From positions 1 to 34,762 of the IMG/VR virus record IMGVR_UViG_3300021976_000044: a stretch of 34,762 nt of DNA; one strand, written 5' to 3'. A model generated the notes under the pieces. That model was not told the DNA's origin. It ran no database searches and was given only the letters and a program-made list of their open reading frames with translations. Source of the DNA: a virus. Both the position numbers and the translations under genes were made by a program. Shown one piece after another: positions 2,625 to 32,822 of the stretch; positions within the stretch are counted from its first letter, which is position 1; every line of letters begins with the position of its first letter.

Positions 2625-3118
2625 GACTATGGGGATTCGATCCCGGAGGTACAACAGGATGGGCCTGCTTTGATCTCAATGCGCCCGAAGCTGTTCGGTG
2701 GGACACGTGTGGTGAGATTGGTCCTGAGGAGCATCACTGGAAGCTCTGGGAGTTCCTACAAGAGCGTGTCAATGTAAACGAAGACCGAATTGTATGTGAG
2801 TCATTCCAGTACAGAGCTCACCTGGATAAGGCTGAGCTAATCTCGTGCGAGTACATTGGTGTTGTCAAGTTGTACTGTGCGGACTACGGATTGACTCCCC
2901 ACTTCCAGACAGCGTCGCAGGGTAAGATCAAGGAGGATCGTCCTGGTAAGCAGGGCAGCTTTACACAAAAGCGCCATCTCGAGAAACTAGGCCTGTGGAT
3001 CCCTGGACAGAAGCACGCGATGGACGGCTATGGACATTTGCTTTACTACATCATCCATTGTGGTGATCCAGCCTTTGCTGACCTACGACTCAAGCTCCTG
3101 ACGATTGGATGGAAGTGA
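2621..3118 (+). CDS. RuvC-like Holliday junction resolvase
   Basis: The 165-residue protein has the RNase H-like fold signature of RuvC: MRLWGFDPGGTTGWA with catalytic Asp7 and the GGTTG turn, Glu60 in DRIVCESFQ, and the C-terminal acidic site around AMDGYGHLLYY (Asp135, His139). These residues coordinate magnesium to cut branched DNA. Phage members process recombination or replication intermediates before packaging. ATG 2621 overlaps the upstream stop (ATGA); a TTG two codons earlier is less likely. Its stop overlaps the GTG start of the next gene. The location with polymerase and HNH-like genes fits a DNA-processing role. Confidence 0.85.
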   Translation: MRLWGFDPGGTTGWACFDLNAPEAVRWDTCGEIGPEEHHWKLWEFLQERVNVNEDRIVCESFQYRAHLDKAELISCEYIGVVKLYCADYGLTPHFQTASQGKIKEDRPGKQGSFTQKRHLEKLGLWIPGQKHAMDGYGHLLYYIIHCGDPAFADLRLKLLTIGWK

Positions 3119-7207: not shown

Positions 7208-8297
7208 CAATGTCCTCCTCTTCGAGGAGCAGCTTTAGTGTCTCCTCAGTAGAATCTGATGGAGGATTTAGTTCCCAACCGACGGCACGGACAAACCCCT
7301 CGAATGGTCTATCGGGAAAGAATCCATCATCCTCAATAGTGATGTGTGCCTGATCTCCCAGATTCCAAGTACCGAGCAAAGGGTCGAGTGTAGGATCTAC
7401 TGTTATGTTCCAACTAATGAGTGGAGGCTTCTTCGTGTTCGCATACATCTTGGTCTGTGCATTCAATGTAGCCTGAACAGTAACATCCTTATTGGTATAC
7501 ACACTTTGCAACAGGGGGTAAGAGCCAAGATTGGATTGTGTGAATGTAGTACGAAGCGGGACACCTGCATCATTGTCGGCACCTACGCCATACACCTTCA
7601 GAGCAGCACCTGCAGCATTCTCAGAGTACGTGTAGTCAGAAATCGATCCCTCGTACTCAAAGAGCAGACCCGAATTGGCCTGCGAGACACCTAGCAGAGG
7701 ATTGCCGAACTTCACCTGACGTTGTAGTATCCCACTACTGTCCATGTAGGGTACGATCTCGAAGTCAAAGCCTGTGTCATACTCTGTCAAGTACTGAACC
7801 AGATCACCATAAGACTTCAACTCATTAGCAGGAAAGTTCTCAGTTCTAGCTGTCTGCATAGGATAGTTTGAAGGAAGAGTGAACAAAGCATTCTGAAGAG
7901 GAACAGCTTGCAATCTCGTAAACAGGTCAATTGCAATGTTGCGTTGCTCTATACCGTTGTAGAACAAACTGTCTGTAGGATAGAACTTGTATGCCCAAGA
8001 CTCCCAAGTCTGCCCAGTTAGTGATAGGGACTTACCGGAACGATTGTATGTACGTGACCAAATCGGTCCACCCCAAACAACAGCGTCGCCACACAAAGCA
8101 TACAACGCGTTCCTACCTGGAATAGTAGAACCTTTAGTATCCAGGTTACCAAAGCCTGAGGCATTCATAGGTACGGTAGCAGTCATGTTACCTGTACCGG
8201 AAAGAGTACGCTGGAACCATGTACCATACAAAGGCAACTCATTGACCACCCTGTTAGACAGGATGTCAACGAGAAGGTATGTATAGTCACGACTCAT
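7197..8297 (-). CDS. ReqiPepy6 Gp37-like minor tail (baseplate hub) protein
   Basis: The 366-residue product (MSRDYTYLLVDILSNRVVNELPLYGTWFQRTLSGTGNMTATVP...) shows the opening of the siphovirus ReqiPepy6 Gp37-like family: a beta strand with LPL, then WFQRTLSGTG and NALYALCGDAVVWGGPIWSRTY. These proteins sit at the tail tip next to the distal tail protein and act as the hub or tail-associated protein. ATG 8297 overlaps the upstream stop (ATGA); an in-frame start 6 codons earlier would lie inside the upstream gene. The end is very acidic (LLLEEEDIDGG). Confidence 0.82.
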   Translation of the reverse strand: MSRDYTYLLVDILSNRVVNELPLYGTWFQRTLSGTGNMTATVPMNASGFGNLDTKGSTIPGRNALYALCGDAVVWGGPIWSRTYNRSGKSLSLTGQTWESWAYKFYPTDSLFYNGIEQRNIAIDLFTRLQAVPLQNALFTLPSNYPMQTARTENFPANELKSYGDLVQYLTEYDTGFDFEIVPYMDSSGILQRQVKFGNPLLGVSQANSGLLFEYEGSISDYTYSENAAGAALKVYGVGADNDAGVPLRTTFTQSNLGSYPLLQSVYTNKDVTVQATLNAQTKMYANTKKPPLISWNITVDPTLDPLLGTWNLGDQAHITIEDDGFFPDRPFEGFVRAVGWELNPPSDSTEETLKLLLEEEDIDGG

Positions 8298-10265: not shown

Positions 10266-13200
10266 TCAGCTTACCCTCCTTGCGAGCTCAAAGCCAAGGT
10301 CGGCCGCATGCTTGCGTGGATCGATCTCATTGGTGTAGATCGTAATCTCCTGGTGAATACCAGGCCTACCGTCTGAACCTCTGCTGTAGTCATTACGGAT
10401 GCTCTCAGCAGGTGCACTAGGCACAACCATCTCACCCCTATGGAGGTACGCGAGTTGGTTCTTGAGGATCTTCCAAGCACCCTTTGCGTAGCCACCCAGA
10501 CCATCTCCGCCACGAAGGAAGTCTGCTGCCTGACCACGAGCGCTTGCGGCAGCTAGCTTATTACCAATCTCGACAGCGTGAACATGTGGTGCCCAGTTAC
10601 CCTTACCTGTACGATCCCAAGCAGCAAAACCAACCATGCGCAGAATTCTTTGGATCGTTTGAAGGTTACCACTACGCGATGTATCAAACACACCACCACC
10701 GGTGTGTGTAGTACCTGAGTAAGACGTAGCCGGCTGGTATGACCCCTGAGTGATGTGAAGAGCTCTACCAAGCATCTGCTCAGCACGCTTGATCTTTCGG
10801 TACGTAGAAAGGTCTAGAGGTTCACCATCATAGAACACACGACGGTTAGGCCCAGTCAGTACACCAAGATCCGAAGGAATGATATACTCGTTGGTACCGA
10901 AGGCTGTGCTGTACAAACCCTTTAGCACATCAACTGACTTGCCACCAACCTTACCAACGAAGTTCCATGCAGGTCCAGCTCCCGACTTCAGACCAGATAA
11001 GAATCCTGACATGATAGCCTTACCAGCAGGAACTAGGAGCTGCTTGTCCAAAGAGATTGGACCCTTGTGATCCTTGATCCAGGTACCAATCCCTCCAACC
11101 CAATCAGTGACAGACTTCCATACACTCTTCAAGCCTTCAAGGAAGCCCTTAATGATATCCTGACCCTTATAGTAGAGCCAGTCCTTAGCCTTAGAGAATG
11201 CGCCAGTCAACTTGTCGATTACATTTGCCTTGACCCAAGTACCAATAGTTCTAGCAATCGCTCTGATACCGTTTGCTAGACCAGTAACGAAGTCCTTACC
11301 CTTCTGGTAAAGCCAAGTACCAGCCTGTGCAAATGGCTTAACCATATCCTTCGCAAGTTGGACGATCTTACCCATGAGGGTCCTAGCAAGAGCAACAATG
11401 GCACTAATCACGTAGTTGAAAACCTTTGGTCCTACGTCCAACAAGTACTTGAACCAACCAATGATACCATTAATAATGTCTGGGAAGATCGAGTGTCCTA
11501 CTAGCTTGTTCCAAAGCCACTTAGCAGCATCGACAATACCCTGAACTAGTCCCTTGAAGAGTCCAACGATGATGCGAATAGCACCTACAAGGATGTCACC
11601 AATAGCACCAAGGATATTGCTAAAGATCGTCTTGATACCTTCCCATGCTAGCTTCCAGTTACCTGTAAAGACACCTGTCAGGAACTGGATGACTCCTCGG
11701 AAGATATTGATGACGCGACCAATGAGCTTGCCGATCAGTTCTAGCACAGGAGGCAACACTGCTGCAATAACAGATGCAGCAACCTTAAAGACAGCAACAA
11801 GAACGTAGATAACACCTTGCAGACGTTGGAAGGCAAATATAACGACGTCCCTAATCCTTCTTGCAATCCACATAAAGATGTCGCCCATTATATTGGCTGC
11901 ACCCTTTAGTGCTTCGCCAATAGGAGGCCAGGCATCCTTAAGACCTTGTAGTGCTGGCTGAATTGCCTTCCACATCTTTGTAGCACCATCAGCAATGGAG
12001 TGCCAAACCTTTACAAGCGAAGGACCAATGCCACTCCAGATTTCCTTGGCAAACTCAACGATCGCTCTTCCAGCATCAGCAAACCAGCCACCAATTTCTG
12101 AGACAGGCTTACCAATGTGATTCCAGATAGCGACACCAACAGCAGTAAAGAGGGTAACAGCGTCGCCCCAAACCTTCTTCATGAAGGCCCAGATCTCCTT
12201 ATGGTACTTGACAATGAAGAAGATCGCAACGCCAATAGCAACGATGGCTGCAATAACAAGAGCAATAGTTCCAAGCAAGGGCAAGAGTGCAATCCCTGCA
12301 AAGGTAGCAGCACCTGCAAACATTAAGAAGACACCTGCAGCAGCTAGTACACCACCTGCAAGTATTGCAAGACCAGCAGCGAGCGCAGTAAGCTTGACTA
12401 TCATGTCACGTGTCTTGGGATCAAGCTTCTGGAACCACTGCAAGACCTTGATGACAGCACCCGTCATGCTTAGCCAAGCAGGTACAAGAGCATCGCCAAC
12501 AACGGTCTTCAGGATCTTGAAGTTGTTCGACAACAACTGAGCCTGCGACTGTGGCTGCTTGAACATTGTGTCGTAGGCTTCAGCCAATGCGCCCTTACTG
12601 TTATGCATTGCTGCAGTGTACTGATTCAGCTTGTCGTAGTTCTTGACAGCGATGTCGTAGAACCTACGGGCCTGAATAGTACCGCCCGCACCCTTAAAGA
12701 GCTCCTGCAAAGCCTTAGCTCGCTCAGGAGCACTCAAGCCTGCCATCTTCTTGCCGAGCTCTGTAACAACCTGAGAGATAGGCAGGAACTCACCCTTGGC
12801 ATTCTTAACTGCAATGCCCATCTTCTCTAGACGTTTAATAGTCGTCGGATGCGAGAAGGCATCTAGAGCACGACCTGCAGAAGCAGAAGCCATAGCAGCT
12901 GACAAACCATTCCTTGTCAGGAAGGCCATCATACCTGCTAGGTCCTGGAAGCTCTGACCAGCACGTACGGCTGACGGAACGGCTCGACCAATAGTCCTAT
13001 TGAACTGTTGGTAAGTACCGACACCCTTACGGACCAGTTGGAACATCGTATCACTGACAGTACGAACTTCACTAATTGGAATCTTGAACGCATTCAGAAT
13101 TCCGATAGTACCCTTACCTGCCTCCTGCAAGTCTTCCTGACCAGCAACAGACTCATAGGCAAACTCCTTGAGGAGCTGCTTCGCCTGTGGAAGGTTGACA

Positions 13201-13586
13201 TCGATCGACGAGAAGATGTCATACAGAGACTTCTGGATATGATCGAACTCAGTAGGAATAACAGAGCCCACTTCTCGCCCGATCTCTTTCAACTCCTCAA
13301 TACTGACCTTGACCTTATCAGTCTGGGTCTTAGTCAGAGCAGCTTGACGAGTGTACTCAACAGCAGAATCAACCGCTGTCTTGAAGAAGGCTGCTGCTGC
13401 AGCTCCAGCAGCAGCGAGTCCAATACCAATTGAAGATAGAGCCTGACCTCGAGCAGTCTGTGCCTGTGCTGTCTTCAGAGTCTGCTTGTCAAGGTCTTTC
13501 ATGTTACCAGAGAAATGACGAAGGACACGAGACGCTTCATCACGTGCGCGAAGGATCAAGAACACTTCACGTGTTGAAAGCGCCAT
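10266..13586 (-). CDS. Tail tape measure protein with C-terminal M15-like domain
   Basis: The 1106-residue protein is the longest in the window and sets tail length. Residues about 80-380 match the TP901-type core (GTYQQFNRTIGRAVPSAVRAGQSFQDLAGMMAFL). Hydrophobic repeats from about 395 to 470 and further amphipathic TM-like segments to about 880 follow. Near the C-terminus lies a peptidase M15-like domain: QGSYQPATSYSGTTHTGGGVFD (His961, Asp968) and GNWAPHVHAVEIG (His1001, His1003) give the H-x-x-G-x-x-x-D and H-x-H zinc ligands of D,D-peptidases. This could trim peptidoglycan during DNA injection. The protein is preceded by the frameshifted chaperone gene, the standard order. Confidence 0.93.
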   Translation of the reverse strand: MALSTREVFLILRARDEASRVLRHFSGNMKDLDKQTLKTAQAQTARGQALSSIGIGLAAAGAAAAAFFKTAVDSAVEYTRQAALTKTQTDKVKVSIEELKEIGREVGSVIPTEFDHIQKSLYDIFSSIDVNLPQAKQLLKEFAYESVAGQEDLQEAGKGTIGILNAFKIPISEVRTVSDTMFQLVRKGVGTYQQFNRTIGRAVPSAVRAGQSFQDLAGMMAFLTRNGLSAAMASASAGRALDAFSHPTTIKRLEKMGIAVKNAKGEFLPISQVVTELGKKMAGLSAPERAKALQELFKGAGGTIQARRFYDIAVKNYDKLNQYTAAMHNSKGALAEAYDTMFKQPQSQAQLLSNNFKILKTVVGDALVPAWLSMTGAVIKVLQWFQKLDPKTRDMIVKLTALAAGLAILAGGVLAAAGVFLMFAGAATFAGIALLPLLGTIALVIAAIVAIGVAIFFIVKYHKEIWAFMKKVWGDAVTLFTAVGVAIWNHIGKPVSEIGGWFADAGRAIVEFAKEIWSGIGPSLVKVWHSIADGATKMWKAIQPALQGLKDAWPPIGEALKGAANIMGDIFMWIARRIRDVVIFAFQRLQGVIYVLVAVFKVAASVIAAVLPPVLELIGKLIGRVINIFRGVIQFLTGVFTGNWKLAWEGIKTIFSNILGAIGDILVGAIRIIVGLFKGLVQGIVDAAKWLWNKLVGHSIFPDIINGIIGWFKYLLDVGPKVFNYVISAIVALARTLMGKIVQLAKDMVKPFAQAGTWLYQKGKDFVTGLANGIRAIARTIGTWVKANVIDKLTGAFSKAKDWLYYKGQDIIKGFLEGLKSVWKSVTDWVGGIGTWIKDHKGPISLDKQLLVPAGKAIMSGFLSGLKSGAGPAWNFVGKVGGKSVDVLKGLYSTAFGTNEYIIPSDLGVLTGPNRRVFYDGEPLDLSTYRKIKRAEQMLGRALHITQGSYQPATSYSGTTHTGGGVFDTSRSGNLQTIQRILRMVGFAAWDRTGKGNWAPHVHAVEIGNKLAAASARGQAADFLRGGDGLGGYAKGAWKILKNQLAYLHRGEMVVPSAPAESIRNDYSRGSDGRPGIHQEITIYTNEIDPRKHAADLGFELARRVS

Positions 13587-14206: not shown

Positions 14207-15151
14207 TTATACTACGGTGACATCCTCTTGTGACTTGACAATAATACTGTAGGACTTACCTACAGCATCCACGACACCATTGTAGGATACAGAACCACGA
14301 ATCAAGTCACCCTGACCGCTCAGACCCAACTCGTAGGTATCGATGATTGCTGCAGGCGTGATGATCTCGATCGAGTTGTTGACGCTCCGAGTTGCCTTGA
14401 GCGTGATGCTCTTAGCAGTCAACGACTTGAACGAGTCGTACTCAGTCCTAGTCTCGAAGTCACGCTCAACAGACAGGGTAGTTGAACGCTCACCGAATGC
14501 AGTGAACTGTGCACCCTGACCTGTGTCCTTGATCCTGTACTGAGGCTCAGCATTGTCCTCGACCTGGAACGAGAAAGCGTCCGTGTCGAAGACCTGAGCA
14601 GCAGTAGGAATTTCCATCTTGTAAGCACCGGCACCAAACGGAATGACCGTAGGCCACGTGATACCTGCAAGGTCAGCCTGTGACGCTTCGTTGTTGCCAA
14701 CGATGCTCACACTCATCTTGAGTGCGCCGTCTTCGATACTGAACGTGAAGCTGCTCACGACACACCCAACGTAACCGAATGTCTCGCTGTTACGCTCTAC
14801 CGCAATAGACAGCGTCTTGACGGGTACAGCAGCAGGAGTCGGAGTGAATGTGTAAGTGAAGCCTGGGCTTGCAGTACCTGTCTTGAGACACGTTGTACGA
14901 GATGCGAGCAGGAAGTACAGAACGACATCTTCCGTTGCATCGAAAGAAAGGTCGCCCTCGACGTGAGCATTACCAGCAATGGCACCCAGGATCTCAGCAG
15001 TCTTCCGAATCGGACGACGCCAGACAGTGTCCTGCTGGTACTGCATCGACTCACTGTCGATAGGAATGAACTTGGTAGGAGCAAGGTAGGTGCCTTGCAC
15101 TGCTTCTGGTGCTATACCTACTGCTCCGCCAGCACCAATACCAACTGCCAT
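14207..15151 (-). CDS. Major tail tube protein
   Basis: The 314-residue product starts MAVGIGAGGAVGIAPEAVQGTYLAPTKFIPIDSES, the opening of many actinobacteriophage tail tube proteins ('G...G.A.E...GT......F.P..S.S'). Further family features are RRPIRKTAEILG, 'AHVEGDLSFDATEDVVLYFLLAS', and a core of beta strands. Six-fold rings of this protein stack to form the tail tube. Its position directly before the chaperone gene is standard. The C-terminal part (about 205-314) has an alternating-strand pattern typical of an added surface domain. Confidence 0.88.
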   Translation of the reverse strand: MAVGIGAGGAVGIAPEAVQGTYLAPTKFIPIDSESMQYQQDTVWRRPIRKTAEILGAIAGNAHVEGDLSFDATEDVVLYFLLASRTTCLKTGTASPGFTYTFTPTPAAVPVKTLSIAVERNSETFGYVGCVVSSFTFSIEDGALKMSVSIVGNNEASQADLAGITWPTVIPFGAGAYKMEIPTAAQVFDTDAFSFQVEDNAEPQYRIKDTGQGAQFTAFGERSTTLSVERDFETRTEYDSFKSLTAKSITLKATRSVNNSIEIITPAAIIDTYELGLSGQGDLIRGSVSYNGVVDAVGKSYSIIVKSQEDVTVV

Positions 15152-15538: not shown

Positions 15539-16018
15539 TTATGGGTTAGGGGGTAGAAATGTCTGCGACTCACAAAGCACGATCAGACGTGACGTGCGGA
15601 GAGTCGTACTGCCCTTCTTCTGATAGCCTGACTCGATCGTTTCTACTAGGCTACCATGTAGAAGCTGATTGGGATCGGCCCCAAATGTTGCATCGGCATG
15701 AACTAGGGTTTCGAGCGCTTCTGCGAGTTCATCCGCCTTCTTGCGATTGCCCTGCGGGTCAGCAATAATGCCAGCATACGCAAGGACACCAATGCGGATC
15801 TCATTCGCCGTACGCCTACGAACTCCATTGAGCTGCCTACGCTTAGTCTCGGGTTCAACACAGATGGCATACCCGCTAGGGATCAGATCCTGATCACCAT
15901 AGAATACACCAAGTCCTTCTACAGGAATGCTGAGGGTCCCTGCCAATGCGATCTTGTTGGTATTGAACTTATCAACCATGTACTGACACAGTACTGGAAT
16001 AGAGGCAGTGCTAGCCAT
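15539..16018 (-). CDS. Tail terminator-like protein
   Basis: The 159-residue product (MASTASIPVLCQYMVDKFNTNKIALAGTLSIP...) lies just before the tail tube genes, the usual site of the tail terminator that caps the growing tail. The body has an alternating beta/helix pattern, with a helix NRKKADELAEALETLVHAD and strands EIRIGVLAYAG and RTSRLIVLCESQTFLP, consistent with the small alpha/beta fold of lambda gpU-like proteins. It overlaps the upstream gene by 8 bases. Assignment rests mainly on context and fold-like pattern. Confidence 0.65.
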   Translation of the reverse strand: MASTASIPVLCQYMVDKFNTNKIALAGTLSIPVEGLGVFYGDQDLIPSGYAICVEPETKRRQLNGVRRRTANEIRIGVLAYAGIIADPQGNRKKADELAEALETLVHADATFGADPNQLLHGSLVETIESGYQKKGSTTLRTSRLIVLCESQTFLPPNP

Positions 16019-16688
16019 GTCGACTCCAATGCCTCTCGATACGCTCCTCGAGCCATTCTTCGAAGACGCGCTGAATGTTTGGGACGTCCTCTTCCTGAAT
16101 CATAATGAAGGGACGTGCTGGGATTGTGAAGTCTCCAGTTCTGATAGTCGTACCAGTCTTGATAGCGTTCGCAATTGACTTCTGCAGGGAGTTGAATGCT
16201 GCGCCAGCGCTTCCTGTCTTCTTGATCCGACCGCCCATAGTACTACCATATCCTCCCTGATGTACCTTACCATACCAAACGTTCTGAGGCAAGTCAAGAA
16301 GGATAGCAGCATTGTTATTGATGGTCCAGATGTTGACGTGCGACATTACTTGTCTGAGAGCACCTGTCTTGTCAAGAAGGTTACCTACAGGCTCACCCAT
16401 CTTCTCGCGGATGTCGATCGTAGCTTCTGCATAGGGTGCCCAAGCAGGTCTGCCCTCTTCGTCAAAGTTTCTCTGAATGCTAGGGATAATGACTTGCTGA
16501 ACTGCACGCTTCAGGGGCTCACGAAAGGAACGGATGTCTATACCAAGCTTGTCGATATCCCTAGCGATGATACCGACACTCGGAGAGAAGGTCAGCTGAG
16601 GTACCGAGTCAGCCATTACCCTAGGATTGATACGGAGCTTGCTACTGACATCTCTGTGGACATCAGCGAACGAGGGTCGTTTGGCCAT
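16011..16688 (-). CDS. Phage virion morphogenesis (tail completion, gpG/HK97 gp10-like)
   Basis: The 225-residue product contains EPLKRAVQQVIIPSIQRNFDEEGRPAWAPYAEATIDIREKMGEPVGNLLDKTGALRQV, matching the virion morphogenesis/tail completion family: a helix with 'I..N F.....P W.P....T', then 'LL.KTG.L...'. The rest includes VHQGGYGSTMG and IPARPFIMIQEED, the usual 'Y...HQ.G......PARPF' end. Such proteins join or finish the tail-head interface. It follows the head-tail connector gene by 3 bases. Confidence 0.8.
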   Translation of the reverse strand: MAKRPSFADVHRDVSSKLRINPRVMADSVPQLTFSPSVGIIARDIDKLGIDIRSFREPLKRAVQQVIIPSIQRNFDEEGRPAWAPYAEATIDIREKMGEPVGNLLDKTGALRQVMSHVNIWTINNNAAILLDLPQNVWYGKVHQGGYGSTMGGRIKKTGSAGAAFNSLQKSIANAIKTGTTIRTGDFTIPARPFIMIQEEDVPNIQRVFEEWLEERIERHWSRHG

Positions 16689-17487: not shown

Positions 17488-18489
17488 TCAGGCCACTGCA
17501 GCCTTGATGACGTACCCGGTTACGGACTTGCCGAAGTCACCCGAAGCTGGGTTGATCTCGACACCGACCATCTTCAGGTCGTAACGACGCGACACGCGGA
17601 TCAGATCGCTCTTCCGCTTGTCTTCACGCCACCTGTCTACGACCTGCTGAACAGCAGCACCGTAGTTCCAGGTGAACTCGTACGCGAAGGCTGGAATGCG
17701 CATTCCTGCACGTGGTGGGACCCACGCGAAGATGACATCCTTGCCCCAGAGGTAGCTCGCCGTGATGGCGTTACCAGCTGCACCAGGTGCGCCCGTACCA
17801 ACACCGACACCAGGTACGATGACACGTTGCACACCCAGAACGGATGCGATGATCTCAGGCGTCAGAACTGCACGCTCCGAGTACTTGATCCGCTCGATGA
17901 TGTCCGGGTGGTCCTCCAGGATGCTCATCACCTGGTAAGGGATGATTGCCGTGTTGGGCTCCATGAACACCTTCGCGTGAACCGCACGCATCGCAGTGCG
18001 CGTGTCACCGATCGGGTTGCTGTTCGCGTAGTCGTTCCACTGTGCTGTACCCACCAGAGTCGTGGAGAGACCCGATGCGTAGTTCGCAGTGGTGGTAACC
18101 ATTGCCTTCATTGCCAGCTCGCGGCCCAGCATGATCTTGCTGGTTACGAGTTCAGTACCATCACGATCTGGTGACAGCGGAGCGTCCGCGTTCTCACGCT
18201 CTTCATCGGTCACCGGGATCTGCAGGCTGTGCTCCTGAGCGTAGTACGGCTCAAGGCTGAGCTGCAGACCTGGGATCTCGTTGGCTTCCGTACCAGGCGC
18301 ACGGAAGTCGCTGGTCTCTGCCAGCCACGACTCGCGACCGAACACGTAGTACTTGTCCGACTGCTTCCTGACACCAACATTGGCGAACAGGTTGTTTCCA
18401 ACCAATCCGTTGTTCGGCCACCCAAGAGAGATAGTAGTCAGCACCTGGTCGATGTGGACGTTACCCGACCCTGTAGGGTTGTAAACCAT
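17488..18489 (-). CDS. Major capsid protein (HK97-fold, E-type)
   Basis: The 333-residue protein (MVYNPTGSGNVHIDQVLTTISLGWPNNGLVGNNLFANVGV...) matches the E-type major capsid proteins of many Gram-positive phages. Their N-terminus has the 'H.D..L....V.....G...D..FP.V.V' pattern. The P-domain helix and E-loop parts appear as DRDGTELVTSKIMLGRELAMKAM and the C-terminal segment AFAYEFTWNYGAAVQQVVDRWREDKRKSDLIRV. The VPGVGVGTGAPGAAGN stretch forms a loop in the A domain. The shells are built from 60T-type copies of this protein. It follows the decoration protein gene by 23 bases. Confidence 0.9.
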   Translation of the reverse strand: MVYNPTGSGNVHIDQVLTTISLGWPNNGLVGNNLFANVGVRKQSDKYYVFGRESWLAETSDFRAPGTEANEIPGLQLSLEPYYAQEHSLQIPVTDEERENADAPLSPDRDGTELVTSKIMLGRELAMKAMVTTTANYASGLSTTLVGTAQWNDYANSNPIGDTRTAMRAVHAKVFMEPNTAIIPYQVMSILEDHPDIIERIKYSERAVLTPEIIASVLGVQRVIVPGVGVGTGAPGAAGNAITASYLWGKDVIFAWVPPRAGMRIPAFAYEFTWNYGAAVQQVVDRWREDKRKSDLIRVSRRYDLKMVGVEINPASGDFGKSVTGYVIKAAVA

Positions 18490-18512: not shown

Positions 18513-18920
18513 TCAGACGCCTGCAGGCATGCCTGGCGTGAGAAGTACGTCAATGAAGTCTCCTGGGTTCACAGCTGCCGTCAAGGCAATACCGAAAGAG
18601 ACAGCTGTAGCACCGGCGATCGTAGCTGCACGAGATGTAGCTGCAGCCTCAGGCATCACACGCGCACCTACAGCAATTGCTGCACTAGCTTCTACGCGTG
18701 CGATGCCAAGGACACGGATGTCCAAAAACACCTTACCTGTAGCGACCCTCGCAGCATCGACGTTCTCCATGACTACACCGAAGACACGATCGGTGATAAC
18801 AGTGGTAGGGCCAATCTCCTGCGGGTTCGCAGTTTGCTTGACGAGCCTACCAGCTGTATAGGCCGCAACACCTGACGCCTTCATCCCCTTGTCGAGGACG
18901 TAATTCGGACCAACACCCAT
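18513..18920 (-). CDS. Capsid decoration protein (DUF2190-like)
   Basis: The 135-residue protein has an Ala/Gly/Val-rich beta sequence (MGVGPNYVLDKGMKASGVAAYTAGRLVKQTANPQEIGPTTVITDRVFGVVMENVDAARVATGKVFLDIRVLGIARVEA...IAVGARVMP) typical of DUF2190-type capsid decoration or head-stabilising proteins. These bind at the three-fold axes of capsids. The gene sits just upstream of the major capsid gene and just downstream of protease/scaffold, the usual place. The C-terminus, 'GFIDVLLTP'-like, ends FIDVLLTPGMPAGV. Confidence 0.82.
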   Translation of the reverse strand: MGVGPNYVLDKGMKASGVAAYTAGRLVKQTANPQEIGPTTVITDRVFGVVMENVDAARVATGKVFLDIRVLGIARVEASAAIAVGARVMPEAAATSRAATIAGATAVSFGIALTAAVNPGDFIDVLLTPGMPAGV

Positions 18921-18936: not shown

Positions 18937-19650
18937 TCAGTCAGTTCTGAACGAGAACGCTTCGTCGCGGTACTCGTCATAGAGCTTGGGGTTCTCGGAC
19001 GAGACACGCTCGACAGCATCGGCGTACAGCATGTCCTTGTTCTCTTCCATCAGCGCCTTGACAGCCTTCTCGAAGCGCTGACCAGGAGTGTACTCGGTGC
19101 CGCGACGAGCCCAACCCTTCTCGGTCAGGTCGATCAGACCAAGGTCGAGGGTCTTCTTGTACTGCTCGAAGATCTCGTTGGCAGTAACCTCAGGAGAGTT
19201 CATCATCACGTAGCGCAGGTGGTTCTTGACCGCAGGTGGGACGGTGAAGTCCTTACCCTTGAACATGTCATCGAGCTCTGACAGCTTCGTCTCGATGCGC
19301 TGCTCCTTGTTCTTACCATTCAGAACAGTGAGCTCTTCATGCTGCGACTGAACGAGCTCGACAAGAGCCTTCTGCGCAGGGTTCGTGGACACCTCGGCGA
19401 GCTGTGCCAGAGCCTGCTCGACCGTGATACCCTCCGGAAGCACCGGAGGCTCGGCCAACTTCTTGAGGGCTGCTTCCACCTCTGCATCAGTAGCGGTCGC
19501 GGGCAGCTTCAGCGTTGCACGAAGCACCGCAGGATCGCTCGGACCTGGAGGAGGCTTCAGCTCACTGAGTGCCTTGAGCTTGACCTCCACTTCGGCGTCG
19601 GTGGCAGTCTCCGCCAGCCCCAACATCGTGCGGAGCTTCTTCGGGTCCAT
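18937..19650 (-). CDS. Nested scaffolding protein from internal start
   Basis: Inside the protease gene, ATG 19650 is preceded by AAGGAG (19656-19661) at a 5-base spacing, and GAAGGAAGG lies just beyond, so the site is as strong as those of separate genes. It gives a 237-residue protein starting MDPKKLRTMLGLAETATDAE. Two similar motifs, LGLAETATDAEVEVKLKALSEL and LKLPATATDAEVEAALKKLAE, appear in tandem early on, followed by a long helical part. A nested scaffold in the 3' half of a protease gene is known from Mu (gpI/gpZ) and lambda (C/Nu3). The co-translated products would build and mature the prohead. Confidence 0.65.
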   Translation of the reverse strand: MDPKKLRTMLGLAETATDAEVEVKLKALSELKPPPGPSDPAVLRATLKLPATATDAEVEAALKKLAEPPVLPEGITVEQALAQLAEVSTNPAQKALVELVQSQHEELTVLNGKNKEQRIETKLSELDDMFKGKDFTVPPAVKNHLRYVMMNSPEVTANEIFEQYKKTLDLGLIDLTEKGWARRGTEYTPGQRFEKAVKALMEENKDMLYADAVERVSSENPKLYDEYRDEAFSFRTD

Positions 19651-20157
19651 GCCATCTCCTTCCTTGCGTTGGTTGAGCTCTACGGGTGGATCCCCAACGA
19701 GCTCTGACAGGTTGACTGGAACCAGGTCCTTAAGGAAGGGCCTGTTGGTAAGTGCACCACCGAAGACGACGTCCTTGTGCTTGACACCAGCAGTGTCAGT
19801 CCACTCATCGTCATACGTCGGAGAGAAGTACCTGTACGCCTTCTCCTTGATCTTGGTAGCGGCCGCCTTCGTCCATTCGACCAGAAGCCATAGACCGTCA
19901 TCGCGAGCTTCTGCCTTCTTCACCCACCCTGCAGCCTCGTCAGTACGAAGCTTGTGGTCGTAGTCGATGTCGGGGTCGATGCCGCGAACCCTGTTGTTGA
20001 CGCTGTCGGCGAAGTTCTTGATACGCTCAGGCGTAAGATTCAAATCGCCGTGCACGGGGTGCTTGAAATTGCCAATACTCATCGCATGAACCCACTGAGC
20101 ATCTGCAGTCTCATCCAAATGGATGCTCTGGATATTCGTAAGGTATGCGAACTTCAC
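18937..20157 (-). CDS. Capsid maturation protease with scaffold (Mu gpI-like)
   Basis: The 406-residue protein opens MKFAYLTNIQSIHL and has a Mu I-type protease domain over about residues 30-155: FKHPVHGDLNLTPERIKNFADSVN, IDYDHK, AAGWVKKAEARDDGLWLLVEWT, YRYFSPTYDDEW and VFGGALTNRPFLKDL. The 'SP.Y...........GALTN.P.L' string is the hallmark of this clan of capsid proteases. Residues about 170-406 are helical and Glu/Lys-rich, matching a scaffolding domain. The gene follows a leftward promoter with a GGAGG ribosome binding site. An internal start likely makes the scaffold on its own. Confidence 0.85.
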   Translation of the reverse strand: MKFAYLTNIQSIHLDETADAQWVHAMSIGNFKHPVHGDLNLTPERIKNFADSVNNRVRGIDPDIDYDHKLRTDEAAGWVKKAEARDDGLWLLVEWTKAAATKIKEKAYRYFSPTYDDEWTDTAGVKHKDVVFGGALTNRPFLKDLVPVNLSELVGDPPVELNQRKEGDGMDPKKLRTMLGLAETATDAEVEVKLKALSELKPPPGPSDPAVLRATLKLPATATDAEVEAALKKLAEPPVLPEGITVEQALAQLAEVSTNPAQKALVELVQSQHEELTVLNGKNKEQRIETKLSELDDMFKGKDFTVPPAVKNHLRYVMMNSPEVTANEIFEQYKKTLDLGLIDLTEKGWARRGTEYTPGQRFEKAVKALMEENKDMLYADAVERVSSENPKLYDEYRDEAFSFRTD

Positions 20158-20468: not shown

Positions 20469-20803
20469 GCGATAGTCACCGTCACTGGTGCGATACGGAC
20501 AGGACGCTCGGTAGCACCTGTAAGCCTGACCCATGGCTGGAAGTCACCAGGACTAAGAGTTAGATCGTTGCCACCGAAAGAGCCGATGAGACGAGCTACA
20601 AAGTAGTCGCCTTCGACACCTGAAGCTACAGCGTCAGCCCATAGAGCGTGAAGGTTGTCAGGTACAATGACAGCAGCCTTCCACTCTGTAGTAGGACGAA
20701 CGCCTGCAGTGAGAAATGCTACCTCTGCACTTACTGAAGGAACGTCGCCAGTAAAGCCCATGTAGACGTACTCGGTCGACTCCCTCTGGAGTTCAACAGC
20801 CAT
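20465..20803 (-). CDS. Hypothetical structural protein (112 aa)
   Basis: The 112-residue product MAVELQRESTEYVYMGFTGDVPSVSAEVAFLTAGVRPTTEWKAAVIVPDN... ends VRLTGATERPVRIAPVTVTIA. Strand-rich sequence with Thr and Val repeats and a C-terminal 'DLTLSPGDFQPWVRLTGATERPV' segment suggest a beta-sandwich virion protein. Its start TAATG-like overlap with the long repeat protein and ATGA overlap with the next gene imply coupled translation and perhaps joint assembly. Similar proteins lie next to fibre genes in some actinobacteriophages; function uncertain. Confidence 0.65.
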   Translation of the reverse strand: MAVELQRESTEYVYMGFTGDVPSVSAEVAFLTAGVRPTTEWKAAVIVPDNLHALWADAVASGVEGDYFVARLIGSFGGNDLTLSPGDFQPWVRLTGATERPVRIAPVTVTIA

Positions 20804-22056
20804 TAGATTCCAACTCCTTCTACATCTGCTGCAGCAGGACCTGTTACGGTACGACTGAGAGCAGGACCAGTAACGCCTTGTGCTTCACTAGCAACACTTC
20901 CTACCAGTTCCTGTGGTGTTCCAACACCACTAGCTACATGCCCTACAGCAACTCCTGTATCTACCATACGCACTGCAGGACCTTCAGGACCTCTTGGAAC
21001 AACACCCACACCTGTAATGTCAACACGGAACGCTTCAAGATCACCATTGAGGACTACGAAGACCGAGTCAGTCATTCCAAGAGCATCAGATACGACACGG
21101 TTGAACGTCTGATTGACAGTAACAACATCTGTCAGACCCAAGTTATCACTTACACCACGGATGATAACAATGGAGACAGTATCAGTCATACCTAGATTGT
21201 CACTAGTGACCTTGCTCTGCGTAAGTCGAGCCGAGTCAGTTAAGCCAAGACTGTCAGTCGTTGATATGTCACCAGAGCCAGTAATCTGTTGCGTGTCAGT
21301 CATGCCTAGAGGATCTGAGATGACCTTGGAAAGACTGATAGCAATGCTATCAGTCATACCGAGATTATCCGAGACACCTTCACCCTGAGCCAACGCAACT
21401 GTATCTGTAAGGCCTAGGTTATCCGTTGTGGAAACACCAATGCCTCGTGCGAGAGTAGTGCTGTCAGTCATTCCTAGGTTGTCAGTAACACCCTTACCTA
21501 GAGCGAATGTCTGTGTATCTGTCATACCGAGAGGATCGGATACTGCCTCACCGTGACCCTGAGACAACGTTGCCGTATCAGTCATTCCAAGGTTATCAGT
21601 TGCCGTTAGAGCAATGCCCTTATCGACAACTGTAGAATCAGTCATACCCATGCTGTCGCTAATGACCATGGAGTAATTGAATGCGACAGTATCGGTCATA
21701 CCTAGAGGATCTGTCTGACCCTTACCGAAAGCGTATACTTGAGAATCTGTCATTCCCAAGTTGTCGGTAGTAGCTACAGGAATGATCTTCTCAACGAGAA
21801 CAGAGTCTGTCATTCCAAGGTTATCACTGACAACCTTGCTCTGACTCAGAGCAGTCGTGTCAGTCATGCCTTCATTGTCACTAATACCCTTGACAAGATC
21901 AATTATGATCGTGTCAGTCATACCTAGGGTATCAGAAGGAGTCTGCGTAAAGTTATTGCTAGCAGCTGCAAATAGAGGACCAACGATACGACTATTAGGT
22001 CCTACTGTTGCAGGAGGGTTGTGTGACGGAGTTGGGTACCTTACGCGTACGCTCAT
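20803..22056 (-). CDS. 16-repeat fibre-like protein (S/T-D-N-L-G-M-T-D repeats)
   Basis: The 417-residue protein has a short N-terminal head (about 1-40), then 16 copies of a nine-residue motif [ST]-D-x-[LME]-G-[ML]-T-D-[STV] from residue 41 to 331. The copies start 18 or 20 residues apart and never at an odd distance. That regularity suits a beta-solenoid or beta-helix rod. The remaining 85 residues are Gly/Val-rich. The protein probably forms a fibre or surface-exposed rod of the virion, and could bind a host ligand with the C-terminal part. It follows the 232-residue protein by overlap and shares its transcript. Function is inferred from repeats and context. Confidence 0.75.
   Translation of the reverse strand: MSVRVRYPTPSHNPPATVGPNSRIVGPLFAAASNNFTQTPSDTLGMTDTIIIDLVKGISDNEGMTDTTALSQSKVVSDNLGMTDSVLVEKIIPVATTDNLGMTDSQVYAFGKGQTDPLGMTDTVAFNYSMVISDSMGMTDSTVVDKGIALTATDNLGMTDTATLSQGHGEAVSDPLGMTDTQTFALGKGVTDNLGMTDSTTLARGIGVSTTDNLGLTDTVALAQGEGVSDNLGMTDSIAISLSKVISDPLGMTDTQQITGSGDISTTDSLGLTDSARLTQSKVTSDNLGMTDTVSIVIIRGVSDNLGLTDVVTVNQTFNRVVSDALGMTDSVFVVLNGDLEAFRVDITGVGVVPRGPEGPAVRMVDTGVAVGHVASGVGTPQELVGSVASEAQGVTGPALSRTVTGPAAADVEGVGI
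21064..21936 (-). repeat. Coding tandem repeat, 16 units of 54 or 60 bp
   Basis: The 16 motif copies lie in this span. Their nucleotide copies differ at wobble positions while the protein motif is held, and the inter-motif linkers differ strongly in sequence. Consecutive motif starts are 54 or 60 bases apart (18 or 20 codons). Confidence 0.9.
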
Positions 22057-25260: not shown

Positions 25261-25565
25261 TACGGCTCCAGTACTGTCGTTGTCGTCCAGAGAGCTTCAC
25301 CAGCAGAGACATTTGTAGCAGTAACTAGACTACTGCTAGGTTCATTATCAACCGCATGCCAAACGATATTTCCGGGTCCAATCCGAACAATTCGTGCTGT
25401 AGTACTGTGCGACCAGATCGCATCTCCAGATGAAGAAGGTACACCAACAGCTGCACCAACTGAAATCAATATGCCTCCCTCAATCAAACCAATTCCATCA
25501 CTTAGAGTAGCTCCGTTTTCAGTAGCAACCGCTGACCTTGAAACGTGAGTGACATACTGAGGCAT
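25260..25565 (-). CDS. Small beta-rich protein (101 aa)
   Basis: MPQYVTHVSRSAVATENGATLSDGIGLIEGGILISVGAAVGVPSSSGDAIWSHSTTARIVRIGPGNIVWHAVDNEPSSSLVTATNVSAGEALWTTTTVLEP. It has a repeated strand pattern with W-x-x-S/H near three positions (DAIWSH, NIVWHA, EALWTT). Its start overlaps the stop of the 195-residue gene (TAATG). Likely a virion-surface or fibre-associated module. Function not recognised. Confidence 0.6.
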   Translation of the reverse strand: MPQYVTHVSRSAVATENGATLSDGIGLIEGGILISVGAAVGVPSSSGDAIWSHSTTARIVRIGPGNIVWHAVDNEPSSSLVTATNVSAGEALWTTTTVLEP

Positions 25566-26152
25566 TATGGTGCTCCTAAGAACTTGTGGATCCAGGTAAT
25601 TGCGAGAGAGTCAAGTGCTCCCTTGTTCACAGCCGAGAACACTGTACGAGAGATGTAGTCAGCAGCAACACCTACAGCATCTGTGACTAGACTAGTGATA
25701 CCAGCTTCTGTGATCGCAGCGTTAGTTGCGACACCAGCAGCCCATGTGGTCTTGTATGCCGCCTCCACACCAAGGCTCGTACCAAGGTTATTAAGTGTTG
25801 GATGTGTTGTGTCAAAGACGATATGCGAGCCGGAAATGTAGGCACCGATTACGATGCCTGTGCCTGCAGCCTTGTTGACTGCAGTAGTGTTAGTACCTAG
25901 CTTCATCCTGGATACTAGCGTAGGCTGCGCGATATTCGGGGTACCAATGAGAGCTACGGCTCGCGTTGCGTAGTACAGATCTCCTTGGTTGGTAATGATG
26001 TTGGAGAACTGCTCAAGGTGCTTCAGATCGCCGTCTGGTCCGCGTAGTTCTACGACGCCGTAGCCACGAAGGCCTAGGTCATTGCACTCTTCGCGAGCAC
26101 GACCCAACGCGATTGTGACTTCGTCAGTCATCTTGCTCACGTCTCTGTGCAT
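25565..26152 (-). CDS. Minor structural protein (195 aa)
   Basis: The 195-residue protein begins with a helix-rich part (MHRDVSKMTDEVTIALGRAREECNDLGLRGYGVVELRGPDG) and continues DLKHLEQFSNIITNQGDLYYATRAVALIGTPN, a segment common at the start of phage tail-fibre or baseplate-type proteins ('F.NLITNQGD.YYA.R'). The end SLAITWIHKFLGAP is the strand-type terminus also seen in the relic at 25222-25260. Ribosome binding site AGAAGGA precedes ATG 26152. A fibre component is the best guess. Confidence 0.65.
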   Translation of the reverse strand: MHRDVSKMTDEVTIALGRAREECNDLGLRGYGVVELRGPDGDLKHLEQFSNIITNQGDLYYATRAVALIGTPNIAQPTLVSRMKLGTNTTAVNKAAGTGIVIGAYISGSHIVFDTTHPTLNNLGTSLGVEAAYKTTWAAGVATNAAITEAGITSLVTDAVGVAADYISRTVFSAVNKGALDSLAITWIHKFLGAP

Positions 26153-27956: not shown

Positions 27957-28484
27957 TTATCTGTTGCAGTCAATATGCTCTAAAGCACCCTTAGTCAGGT
28001 ACTGTAGAGCCATCTGATATGTCAGGCAACGAGCATTGTCGTTGCTACCGTCAGCACTACGTGGATATCCAATTGCTCCGTTGATCTTTCCCATCTGGTT
28101 ATTGTCCGCCCACTCGTTACACTTCGGACGAGCTTTTGTCCAATACCAGACAGCGATCTTCGCAGAGTATCGAATATCAAGGGCTAGATCAGGCTCTTCT
28201 ACAAGGTCAATACCGAGATACTTACCTGCAGGAGTGTAGTTCATGATCGAACCGTCCTCCAGTACCTTGCCCGTCAGCTGAATGTACCCACGACCTGCAT
28301 ACGGTCGTGCGTCACTGACTTGACGGACATTGTACTCTAGCCACGACTCAGTCAGCAGCGTCGTCAGGAAGGCAGCAACACGTCGAGGCGTATTGATCTT
28401 CGCATCATGCATTGCTTGCAGCAAGGAAGGCAGCCCTTCAAGTACGACTGACTCCTTACCTTTCCTGAGCCTGCTGGGGAACAT
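27957..28484 (-). CDS. Endolysin, GH19-type muramidase/chitinase-like
   Basis: The 175-residue product includes VAAFLTTLLTESWLEYNVRQ (catalytic Glu46 in the T-E-S motif) and RPYAGRGYIQLTGKVLEDGSIMNYTPAGKYLGIDL, the glycoside hydrolase 19 signature 'Y-x-G-R-G-x-I-Q-L-T'. These enzymes cleave chitin or the glycan of peptidoglycan. The C-terminal half has the family's W-Y-W helix (KIAVWYWTKARPKCNEWAD). The start is uncertain: ATG 28484 has only a close AAAGG, and a non-standard upstream start is possible. Eleven bases separate it from the holin-like gene. Confidence 0.83.
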   Translation of the reverse strand: MFPSRLRKGKESVVLEGLPSLLQAMHDAKINTPRRVAAFLTTLLTESWLEYNVRQVSDARPYAGRGYIQLTGKVLEDGSIMNYTPAGKYLGIDLVEEPDLALDIRYSAKIAVWYWTKARPKCNEWADNNQMGKINGAIGYPRSADGSNDNARCLTYQMALQYLTKGALEHIDCNR

Positions 28485-29482: not shown

Positions 29483-31018
29483 TTATCCTCCGCTCTTATC
29501 TTGTCCCGCATTCTTTCCTGGAACACCCTTTTCTACCGGCGTATCCTTCTGGCGCGGGAGACCTGCCTTTTGACCATCCTGCTTGTTCATCGTCTCAATG
29601 TCACGACGTGTCTCAGGATCAGCCTTCGGAAGGTCCATCTCCTCACGCAGGTTCTCTTCGAGCCTGTCATCAGGAGTAAGGACCTTTGCACCAACAAGGT
29701 TACGTACGGCGAACGACATGGTACGCCAATCTGCCTGCTCACCAATACGACGAGCCTTCAACTGTGGGTACTTCTCACCCCTACCCCAGTTCAGGTCAAT
29801 CAACTGGGGAATGGCGTACTTGTTGAACACTCCTGCAACGATGTCAGCGATGAACCGAGTAGCCTTGAGGAACATCGTCTGATCTTCCTCCTTGGCACCT
29901 CCATCCATAAAGGCTACCAGGATGTTCTTCTGGATCTGCTTGTCGTGGTGATCGATAGACTTCATCGCATCGACAGGCTGACCCTCAAGCTTGGCGAAGA
30001 GCAACTCCCAGTTAGGAGGCAACACAACGTGTGCGCGCTCATTCGTACGAAGGTTACGTCCCAACTGATCAGCTTCGAGCTTGTCGACCTTGGTAAAGCC
30101 TGGTGGAAGCTTAATCACTGGTACACCGATGCCATGACGTTCCTTCTGAATGGCATCGATCATGTAGAGCTTGTCCTTGTAGTACCAGTGCTTATACGCT
30201 GACCGCAGAATGCTCAGGCCTTCAATATCGCCAGCTTCCTTATCAAACGAGAACACCAGAAGCTTGTCAATTGGAATGACAATAGGATCAGGATCGTCAA
30301 TGTCGGGGTTGATCATCTCGACACTATCAGGACCACCATTACCGTCGAAGTTCCACTTCAGAACATCCATAGGGTGACGAGGTGCAAGCTTCTTCCAAAC
30401 GGCTCGCTCCTGACCTCCAATCATCCGGATGTCCCAGACCTTCTCAAACATGTAGTACCCGAAGTCAGCCATCAACAGGATCTCAGTGAGCGTCTGGGGC
30501 CACGTCGGACTCTGATAGCAAGTCAGACACTCCCAAGCGAAGTTGGCCTTGTTGATGTCCATAGCACTTTCGCTAGCAGGCTCCATGAACCACCTAGCAC
30601 TCAGTACAGGCGTCTTCACCAATCGTAGCGTACCCCGTACGGTACCATCGCCTCGACGCATCATGTCATACTTCTCGAGACCCTTCAATCCACGCAGGTC
30701 ATTGTTGTACTCTTGCCGTGACCAACTACTGAATGGAGAAGGTACTGAAGTGCCGAGCTCTCCTAGCGGTGCAGGCCTAGTTACAGAAAGCTGCTTAGGC
30801 TCTTCAGCAAACTGGATCTCATCAAGCTGCTCCCCCACTAGTGCGCGCCTTTCTCTGGCACCCGGGACCCTCTTCGCTACGATCACCACAGGCCCGAACG
30901 CTTCATTCGTGACGACGTCAACGACATCGTTGTTCCGTAGAATGTCGTAGAAGTTGCTGTCTGGAGGTGGGTTGTCCTGCGGAGGGGCCTTCCACCAGCC
31001 GCGATCGAATACGCCCAT
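29483..31018 (-). CDS. Portal protein (DUF935/Mu gp29-like)
   Basis: The 511-residue protein shows the portal family core: RRGDGTVRGTLRLVKTPVLSARWFMEPASES, YQSPTWPQTLTEILLMADFGYYMFEKVW, and NGGPDSVEMINPDIDDPDPIVIPIDKLLVFSFDKEAGDIEGLSILRSAYKHWYYKDK, the 'G.S.LR..Y..W..K' block seen in DUF935-type portals. The portal forms a dodecameric ring through which DNA is packaged and ejected, and where the tail attaches. Its start overlaps the stop of the terminase gene by one base, a typical arrangement. The C-terminal 60 residues are polar and likely flexible (KQDGQKAGLPRQKDTPVEK). Confidence 0.88.
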   Translation of the reverse strand: MGVFDRGWWKAPPQDNPPPDSNFYDILRNNDVVDVVTNEAFGPVVIVAKRVPGARERRALVGEQLDEIQFAEEPKQLSVTRPAPLGELGTSVPSPFSSWSRQEYNNDLRGLKGLEKYDMMRRGDGTVRGTLRLVKTPVLSARWFMEPASESAMDINKANFAWECLTCYQSPTWPQTLTEILLMADFGYYMFEKVWDIRMIGGQERAVWKKLAPRHPMDVLKWNFDGNGGPDSVEMINPDIDDPDPIVIPIDKLLVFSFDKEAGDIEGLSILRSAYKHWYYKDKLYMIDAIQKERHGIGVPVIKLPPGFTKVDKLEADQLGRNLRTNERAHVVLPPNWELLFAKLEGQPVDAMKSIDHHDKQIQKNILVAFMDGGAKEEDQTMFLKATRFIADIVAGVFNKYAIPQLIDLNWGRGEKYPQLKARRIGEQADWRTMSFAVRNLVGAKVLTPDDRLEENLREEMDLPKADPETRRDIETMNKQDGQKAGLPRQKDTPVEKGVPGKNAGQDKSGG

Positions 31019-32460
31019 TAGAACGTGACACCTCCTGAGGTGAAGAAGCCCTCATCACCTGCTGGATTAAAGGATTGGAAGTCATGAGACCCTGGAAGTA
31101 CGAGCACAGGAGCAGGTGCGGCACTTGTATACATTGCATCGCTAAGCTGGTAAATTGCACCCAACCTAAACACGTGCATTAGACCGTAACGCAAAGCATC
31201 AATTGCGTGATCTTGCATCTTGACACCGAACTCAGGCACGTTCTTTCCCTTGATACTGCCGGGTGCCTTGTAGTCATCAAGCTCTGAAATGGTGTGCTTA
31301 CAGCTAAAGTCCACGTAAAATGCAGGCTTTGAGAGGGGTCCACCGTACTCATCCGTACCATATTCACGGTCCCTCATGAATGACCGCATCAAGTTGATGC
31401 CCTCACGCCAGTTGGTCTTCGCCTCTGGGTTGGTCACACACGAGACTAGATGCTGGGACACAACCGCAGCAGCCTCAGGATCGGCAGCATCACCAAACGC
31501 TAGGTCCAAATGGTACCCAGCGGGCTGCGGACGCTCCTTCAGCTCTGCACAGTGCATCTCGGTTGTCATGTAGGCCTTGTAGTGCTCACGCCATACGAAC
31601 ACCTGATCGTCAGGACTTACCTGAAACTCGATCGCTGCAAGTGGGTTAGTGTATCCCCAGTCAAAAGCAATGTAATTAGGCCAGTTAGGATTAAACGGAA
31701 CGTTCTTTACATGTACTGAAGTATTCCACTCTGGAAAGATCTTACCAACAAAGCTACTAAAGTCCGCTGCAATCTCTTGCGCGAATTCCTCCGGTAGCAT
31801 CGTCCTATGCAGCAACTGGATCTCAGGGTCCTCATACCCGCCTGGGTAGATCTCCGTGTTCATCCAACTCGGGAACTGCCAGCTCTCATACTCAGGCACA
31901 TGTTGGTCTTGTCCCAGCAAGTGCATCTGGTACAGCCAGTTGTGCCCCTCAGGCGTCGTCGGGAAGTCAGCACCACCCCTACGGTCGCCTAGTGCAGGCC
32001 TAATGTACCTAGAAAATGTCTCTTCCTTATGCTTAGCTGCCTCAGACATGATCACATGGTCCAGTGCATCACCGACAAGGTTCTCGGGATGATCAGCACT
32101 GCGTACGTAAACGGCTGTATTCCAAGGGAACTTGATGTACATATCCCCCTGCTTCTTGTTGTACGCCTTCTTGATCCTCTTGTCACGCCCCAACGACATG
32201 TTAACAATCAGATCGTCCCAGATAACCCGGAACTCCTTCTCACCCAAGTCGTAGGTCGGCCCAACGATCCAATAGTTTCTATCAGGCACAAACAACTTGG
32301 GCTCGAGGTCCCTACCGGCCATCGTAGACTTGCCAAACCGACGACCACAACATGCTACTCTAAACCGTGCTACTGCGTCGTGGTACAGCCTCTGTTGCGG
32401 GTGGGGCACGTACCGAATCTTGCGAAAGAAGGCAGCCTTGTCAATCAAGCCCTGTGTCAT
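31018..32460 (-). CDS. Terminase large subunit
   Basis: The 480-residue protein carries the Walker A motif CCGRRFGKS (37-45), a Walker B-like ALDHVIMSEAAK (139-140 Ser-Glu in place of Asp-Glu), the coupling motif TTPEG (168-172), and a nuclease domain with YIAFDWGYTNP (Asp267), LAFGDAADPEA (Asp324) and KMQDHAIDALRYG (Asp417, Asp421). It drives ATP-dependent DNA packaging and cuts the concatemer at headfuls or cos. ATG 32460 overlaps the upstream stop; a few extra residues at 32472 would lie inside that gene. The Walker B Ser is unusual and worth checking. Confidence 0.92.
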   Translation of the reverse strand: MTQGLIDKAAFFRKIRYVPHPQQRLYHDAVARFRVACCGRRFGKSTMAGRDLEPKLFVPDRNYWIVGPTYDLGEKEFRVIWDDLIVNMSLGRDKRIKKAYNKKQGDMYIKFPWNTAVYVRSADHPENLVGDALDHVIMSEAAKHKEETFSRYIRPALGDRRGGADFPTTPEGHNWLYQMHLLGQDQHVPEYESWQFPSWMNTEIYPGGYEDPEIQLLHRTMLPEEFAQEIAADFSSFVGKIFPEWNTSVHVKNVPFNPNWPNYIAFDWGYTNPLAAIEFQVSPDDQVFVWREHYKAYMTTEMHCAELKERPQPAGYHLDLAFGDAADPEAAAVVSQHLVSCVTNPEAKTNWREGINLMRSFMRDREYGTDEYGGPLSKPAFYVDFSCKHTISELDDYKAPGSIKGKNVPEFGVKMQDHAIDALRYGLMHVFRLGAIYQLSDAMYTSAAPAPVLVLPGSHDFQSFNPAGDEGFFTSGGVTF

Positions 32461-32822
32461 GCGCTCACCCACCTACCTTCACGGATGAAGCCATGATCCC
32501 CACATTCAGGCCCTTGCTGCCAACGGTACCTACACAACAGTGATGGCGAAATCGTAAGTGGCTCTAGGCTCTCTACATCCCAGGCAACGTCTCCATGATC
32601 TCTGAACGGACCACTACCAGCACACCAGCGATTCTCGTCTAACTTGTAGTGCGGCTGAATGATCCCGTGGTACTTGCCTGGCCCCTTACCGAAGCCCGGA
32701 CAACTCTCACTGCAGGTTACAAGTTGGTACCAATGCAAGTCGCCAAGGTAGGTGTACTTCCCGAACTGTCCGTAAGGGAAGGCATCAATCTGCTCTTGAG
32801 TCAATCCCGAGTCCGTCGTCAT
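32457..32822 (-). CDS. DUF6527-like small protein (121 aa)
   Basis: ATG 32822 has AGAGGAGG seven bases upstream; in-frame extension to 32918 would overlap the next gene. Near the end, VESLEPLTISPSLLCRYRWQQGPECGDHGFIREGRWVSA resembles DUF6527 proteins ('SL.P.I.P S I........C..H.FI..G.V...'), and the Cys residues (SESCPGF, WCAGSG, LLCRY, PECGDH) could bind zinc. These families are of unknown function. The position just before the large terminase is typical of small DNA-packaging-associated or HNH-like genes. Confidence 0.68.
   Translation of the reverse strand: MTTDSGLTQEQIDAFPYGQFGKYTYLGDLHWYQLVTCSESCPGFGKGPGKYHGIIQPHYKLDENRWCAGSGPFRDHGDVAWDVESLEPLTISPSLLCRYRWQQGPECGDHGFIREGRWVSA

Follow-up and report, generated by a model that had tools for sequence, protein, structure and literature searches.

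The minus-strand gene at 20803..22056 codes for a 417-residue protein (hereafter P0001, ATG at 22056) that belongs to a widespread, uncharacterised and phrog_12240-like family of phage repeat proteins. The DNA that we analyzed, referred to as the window, is the whole 34,762-base IMG/VR virus record IMGVR_UViG_3300021976_000044, which has a G+C content of 51%. On balance, we favor a reading of P0001 as a late phage protein, probably on the virion surface, whose TDxxGMTD units build an elongated, beta-rich stalk or spacer. We infer its stalk function and its presence in the virion, as well as the use of separate or fused binding domains, from the late virion genes that surround it, from domain fusions in relatives, from an upstream domain gene and from a co-conserved neighbor.

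The repeats are conserved as protein

The P0001 gene is tightly packed on the minus strand, with a start codon that overlaps the stop codon of the preceding gene and a 3' end that touches the next gene, and the plus strand across 20803-22056 is full of stops. The protein consists of 40 N-terminal residues ahead of the first repeat (21937..22056, minus strand), an array of 16 units, each 18 or 20 residues long (residues 41-340; 21037..21936, minus strand) and a C-terminal tail rich in Gly, Val and Ala (residues 341-417; 20806..21036, minus strand). Residues 332-387, which span the end of the array and part of the tail, weakly match phrog_26919 (E 0.005). The repeat region contains no cysteine and no tryptophan and has a net charge of -28.

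A first-pass annotation of this DNA, made from its letters alone, had described 16 copies of the motif [ST]D..G[ML]TD[STV] with intervals of exactly 18 or 20 residues. A recount returns the same motif starts, at residues 41, 59, 77, 97, 115, 133, 153, 173, 191, 211, 229, 247, 267, 285, 303 and 323, with successive intervals of 18, 18, 20, 18, 18, 20, 20, 18, 20, 18, 18, 20, 18, 18 and 20, and the same extent of the motif block (21064-21936, minus strand). Shuffled P0001 sequences contain a mean of only 0.0005 motifs. The annotation had further claimed that the copies diverge at wobble bases while the motif is kept, and this is also what we observe. Specifically, at the codons of the invariant D, G, T and D residues 271 of 480 pairwise comparisons are synonymously different and none is non-synonymous, and over all motif codons the first and second positions are 79% identical among copies vs 43% for the third positions. 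Since codon differences at the invariant residues are all synonymous, it is the protein and not the DNA that is conserved in these repeats, which bears out the proposal that selection acts on the protein. Tandem Repeats Finder detected no DNA repeat over the array; the sole tandem DNA repeat that it found in the window (11158-11208, two copies of ~24 bases) lies within the tape measure gene.

P0001 is encoded among the late genes of a long-tailed phage

The minus strand of the window carries, in order, genes for the terminase large subunit (31018-32472) and the portal protein (29483..31018), a block of small genes, and then genes for a Mu I-like head protease (18937..20157), a scaffold or decoration-like protein (18513-18920), the phrog_1005 major capsid protein (17488..18489), a neck protein (16011-16688), a minor tail protein (14207-15151) and the tape measure protein (10266-13586), beyond which there are further tail genes. 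This minus-strand order of terminase, portal, protease, capsid, neck, tape measure and tail genes indicates that the window virus is a long-tailed phage with siphophage late genes. The P0001 gene sits with the portal gene on one side and the head protease gene on the other.

Several additional features of the window are worth recording. An endolysin-like gene (27957-28484, minus strand; phrog_181, E 1.1e-21) is located amid the small genes between the portal and head protease genes, which is an unusual placement for a lysis function. The tail block ends with an 851-residue gene (4655-7210, minus strand) without a PHROG match that is a candidate for a tail tip or receptor-binding protein. Finally, plus-strand frames at 2615-3118, 1644-2030 and 492-857, which by eye appear RuvC-like, HNH-like and MazG-like, respectively, are probably early genes.

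The repeat family is essentially viral

With the P0001 protein as query, nothing close was found among phage records or viral contigs. Searches of phage records by tblastn were likewise empty, both for P0001 at E 1e-5 and for the repeat proteins of loci L025 and L214 at 0.01, although the low-complexity filter may mask relatives in these searches. Relatives were collected with a DNA pattern that codes for two D..G-x-TD motifs 18 or 20 residues apart. The 18-residue version of this pattern is present in 77 viral loci and the 20-residue version in at least 119. Collagen-like proteins with a GxTDxxGxTD repeat matched the same DNA pattern and were taken out before counting; these viral proteins (L022, L023, L044, L057 and L072) repeat the motif every 6 residues and constitute a separate family. 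A ‘tail fiber’ of phage KoPa-4 (tblastn E 3) was also set aside as it contains a different kind of repeat, NLxDLxxxxxARxNLGL.

Overall the repeat is found in 94 reading frames from ~93 loci, nearly all of them IMG/VR phage contigs, with the consensus TDxxG[LIM]TD every 18-22 residues. Among 84,980 bacterial and archaeal genomes there are two true cases, one in an Actinoplanes genome and one in a Sedimentisphaerales assembly. The Actinoplanes case, L214, is a prophage, since its repeat protein is identical to that of viral contig L031, and the Sedimentisphaerales case is probably one as well. Thus, with loci that are almost exclusively viral and cellular cases that comprise one prophage and one probable prophage, the family is essentially viral. 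Many relatives (for example L105, L005, L059 and L043) end, after the long repeats, in short ones such as GAPKxRIxxG, AEDRTLRV, VxxESRxL and ITPRPxxG.

Existing profiles capture little of this family. The phrog_12240 profile (PHROGs v4) matches the P0001 repeat at residues 97-279 (E 6.5e-9) and is also matched by 14 of 62 related proteins, with most relatives below threshold. A Pfam search with P0001 at E values up to 1 yielded two sub-cut-off hits, to DUF5792 (0.015) and to a silk domain (0.67), and no solenoid repeat profile. No solved structure significantly matched the repeat family, and a literature search found no description of a TDxxG[LIM]TD repeat.

Unit lengths change mostly in steps of two residues

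When traced over the family, unit lengths are predominantly 18 (200 units), 20 (809), 22 (56) and 24 (10), as compared with 19 (23), 21 (24), 23 (8) and 25 (15). This amounts to 1076 even vs 71 odd intervals, a count that is slightly biased by the recruitment of each relative via one 18- or 20-residue pair. Among loci recruited by the 18-residue pattern alone, 20 is still the commonest length and 19 and 21 are rare. The earlier assertion that intervals are never odd is therefore correct for P0001 and describes a strong bias of the family, but it is not a law, as homologs do contain odd units. This includes close homologs, namely L105 and L020 (units of 21, 21 and 25), which have terminase, portal or protease genes in common with the window phage, and L014 (a unit of 21), which has a close portal. 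Odd spacing in close homologs is an outcome that the annotation itself had named as counting against its proposal.

The odd units differ from the even ones in a specific manner. A glycine at position 10 is present in 14 of 23 units of 19 residues (from 8 loci) vs 4 of 936 units of 18 or 20 residues (Fisher p 4e-22, with a larger true p given that the units are related), and most units of 24 or 25 residues hold a GG loop in their linker. Judged from the sequences, the position 10 glycine looks like a beta-bulge that would offset a single extra residue, and it offers the strongest support for the idea that the even rule reflects extended strands. Indeed, lengths that change mostly in pairs, and odd changes that come with a compensating glycine, are what is expected of extended strands.

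A different account of the even spacing is evolutionary inertia, by which blocks of 18, 20 or 56 residues were copied and indels were rare, with no structural rule involved. Evidence that bears on this comes from the order of the units in P0001, where the interval order 18-18-20 occurs in four of five triplets (p about 0.01, permutation). Specifically, this order is present in minus-strand triplets 1 (residues 41-96; 21769..21936), 2 (residues 97-152; 21601..21768), 4 (residues 211-266; 21259..21426) and 5 (residues 267-322; 21091..21258), and triplet 3 is irregular with 20+18+20 (residues 153-210; 21427..21600). The 18-18-20 order is also seen in L025, L028, L043, L046, L052 and partly in L008, and a 20-20-X order is seen in L068, L034 and their relatives. 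Over 35 proteins unit lengths recur with a period of three units (lags 3 and 6, z 3.5-3.8). A family-wide period of three repeats was nevertheless rejected because this signal is gone once the 18-18-20 and 20-20-X groups are removed (lag 3 z -0.4), which indicates that the 18-18-20 order is specific to the P0001 lineage, and not a structural law, just as 20-20-X is confined to one other. The simplest account of the triplet order is that two lineages each inherited a block structure, which is in keeping with inertia. However, inertia does not readily explain why many lineages mix units of 18, 20 and 22 residues and yet rarely change length by one, nor why odd units carry a specific glycine. In addition, linkers in the same phase show no greater similarity than other linkers (1.56 vs 1.61), although old copies would be expected to lose their similarity. 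We thus regard inertia as a doubtful explanation of the even spacing as a whole.

The repeat region likely has a beta fold

We favor, as likely, a beta fold for the repeat region, a view to which the spacing and the glycine evidence contribute most. An AlphaFold2 model of a seven-repeat P0001 fragment, built with 21 sequences, has one 13-residue strand per repeat connected by short turns and contains no helix, at low confidence (pLDDT 62, pTM 0.46). T, V, S and G are frequent in the linkers, whose beta propensity exceeds their alpha propensity.

The first-pass annotation went further in that it proposed a beta-solenoid rod with one 18-20-residue rung per repeat, and suggested structure prediction as a check. 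The beta component of this proposal is favored by the spacing, by the position 10 glycine and by the predicted strands; the solenoid component is unproven. In its support, known solenoids have coil lengths of 18 and 20 residues, even steps and glycine bulges would suit extended strands, and the PDB entry that scores best in a profile search with the repeat is the Hap autotransporter passenger, which we take to be a beta-helix (E 0.51, non-significant). The low-confidence prediction shows repeating units that are drawn as one long strand and a short turn instead of rungs. A fold search with the repeat model also gave no significant match in PDB or BFVD, with no solenoid among the PDB matches listed, in line with the lack of solenoid profiles in the Pfam search. 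Furthermore, the in/out alternation of hydrophobic residues expected of rungs is absent, with strand-like periods being depleted in the family's units of 18 and 20 residues. A true solenoid hence appears to us unlikely, while still the foremost of the other structural possibilities.

The same periodicity analysis raises the possibility of short amphipathic helices with TDxxG turns, with the 20-residue branch forming helical hairpins or three-helix modules. Hydrophobic periodicity in the 20-residue linkers peaks at a helix-like 100-110 degrees (z 22.7 at 110 degrees vs within-unit shuffles), and the units of L158 read as amphipathic helices. On the other hand, this periodicity is weak in 18-residue units, helices predict neither the two-residue steps nor the glycine in odd units, and both the beta-prone linkers and the helix-free P0001 model point away from them. 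A helical array is therefore quite improbable.

Neighboring genes and a putative surface stalk

In hhalign, the gene adjacent to and upstream of P0001 (22053..22751, minus strand) matches, with a probability of 88 and a pairwise E of 3.5e-6, a domain that 15 relatives carry N-terminally fused to their repeats; all other combinations stay below 2%. The window phage thus seems, by this match, to encode separately a domain that relatives fuse. Other repeat-protein fusions in relatives involve LamG (3), fn3 (3) and DUF4082 domains, as well as PHROG tail, minor tail and virion-structural families.

A second gene of interest codes for an uncharacterised 195-residue protein of phrog_5417 (25565..26152, minus strand). 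In 52 of 93 repeat loci a homolog of it lies on the same strand no more than 3.2 kb away, a count that is a minimum since many loci are short fragments, and L014 shares the gene order portal - neighbor - repeat - protease. The model of its product is confident (pLDDT 80, pTM 0.80), and a PDB fold search with this model gave no match. Its only relative in a cultured phage is BcepGomr gp18, a weak match (E 5e-3) whose gene has a virion structural gene on one side and a tail fiber gene on the other. The product is possibly an anchor or assembly partner of the repeat protein.

Large genes beside the repeat genes of relatives code for portal, major head protein, head protease, terminase, tail tube, tape measure and endolysin. 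P0001 could alternatively be a late protein that is not part of the virion, such as a secreted or cell-surface protein made among lysis and head functions, and the nearby endolysin gene (27957-28484) is compatible with this. That the neighbors are mostly virion genes, and that relatives are fused to tail, minor tail and virion-structural families, argues otherwise and leaves such a role improbable.

A location within the late structural block and a linkage to binding-type domains are both features expected of a phage stalk or fiber. In the surface stalk that we favor, each unit would most likely contribute one extended strand and a DxxG turn. As strand residues alternate between sides, unit length could change only by pairs, and an odd change would need a glycine bulge. 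The stalk would keep binding domains at a distance from the particle; in relatives it would carry fused lectin-like or sandwich domains, and here the gene for such a domain would be the one directly upstream. A more detailed version is an undescribed virion-stalk beta fold with one strand per unit of 18, 20 or 22 residues, pair-quantised lengths, rescue by the position 10 glycine, an acidic ladder of D2 and D8 that possibly binds calcium, and the 25565..26152 product as anchor or assembly partner. Taken with all of its parts, we consider that version rather unlikely.

The repeat is present in dozens of unrelated environmental phages, is missing from Pfam, lacks a solved relative and is nearly undetectable in cultured phage genomes. 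If it does form a virion stalk, then phage surfaces would commonly include this unannotated component, whose co-conserved partner gene is testable. The pair-step rule with its glycine exception would also constitute a sequence-only signature of strand geometry, and could guide the design of rigid rods of chosen length.

Comparison with known systems

The closest likeness is to phrog_12240, which matches the repeat itself and is a cluster without assigned function or structure. More distantly, AZF89921.1 of Methanosarcina virus MetMV, a virus known from metagenomes (PMC7164591), has degenerate D/E-S-L-x-L-S/T-D repeats ~20 residues apart and is encoded within a block of late genes; it was matched by tblastn at E 2e-4. 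This hypothetical protein differs in that its motif has largely decayed, regular spacing is lost and the C-terminal domain is a different one.

Hexapeptide and RTX folds have 18 residues per coil and pentapeptide folds have 20. P0001 resembles these beta-solenoids, and those of AIDA-type autotransporters, in having 18-20 residues per unit, a composition rich in T, S, D and G and probable extended strands, but it has a different motif, no in/out alternation and no Pfam or fold match to them. The low-confidence P0001 model is similar to the strand-turn-strand arrangement of MORN-type single-layer sheets, with a non-significant Foldseek match to a Tunisvirus MORN protein (prob 0.66, E 0.19), but motif and unit length again differ.

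Trimeric phage fiber stalks, such as the triple beta-spiral, the triple-stranded beta-helix and the beta-prism, are repetitive beta stalks that bear receptor-binding domains. Their motifs and unit lengths differ from those of P0001, which was predicted as a monomer only. Finally, collagen-like phage proteins are built on an uninterrupted Gly repeat of 3 or 6 residues, whereas the spacing in P0001 is 18 or 20.
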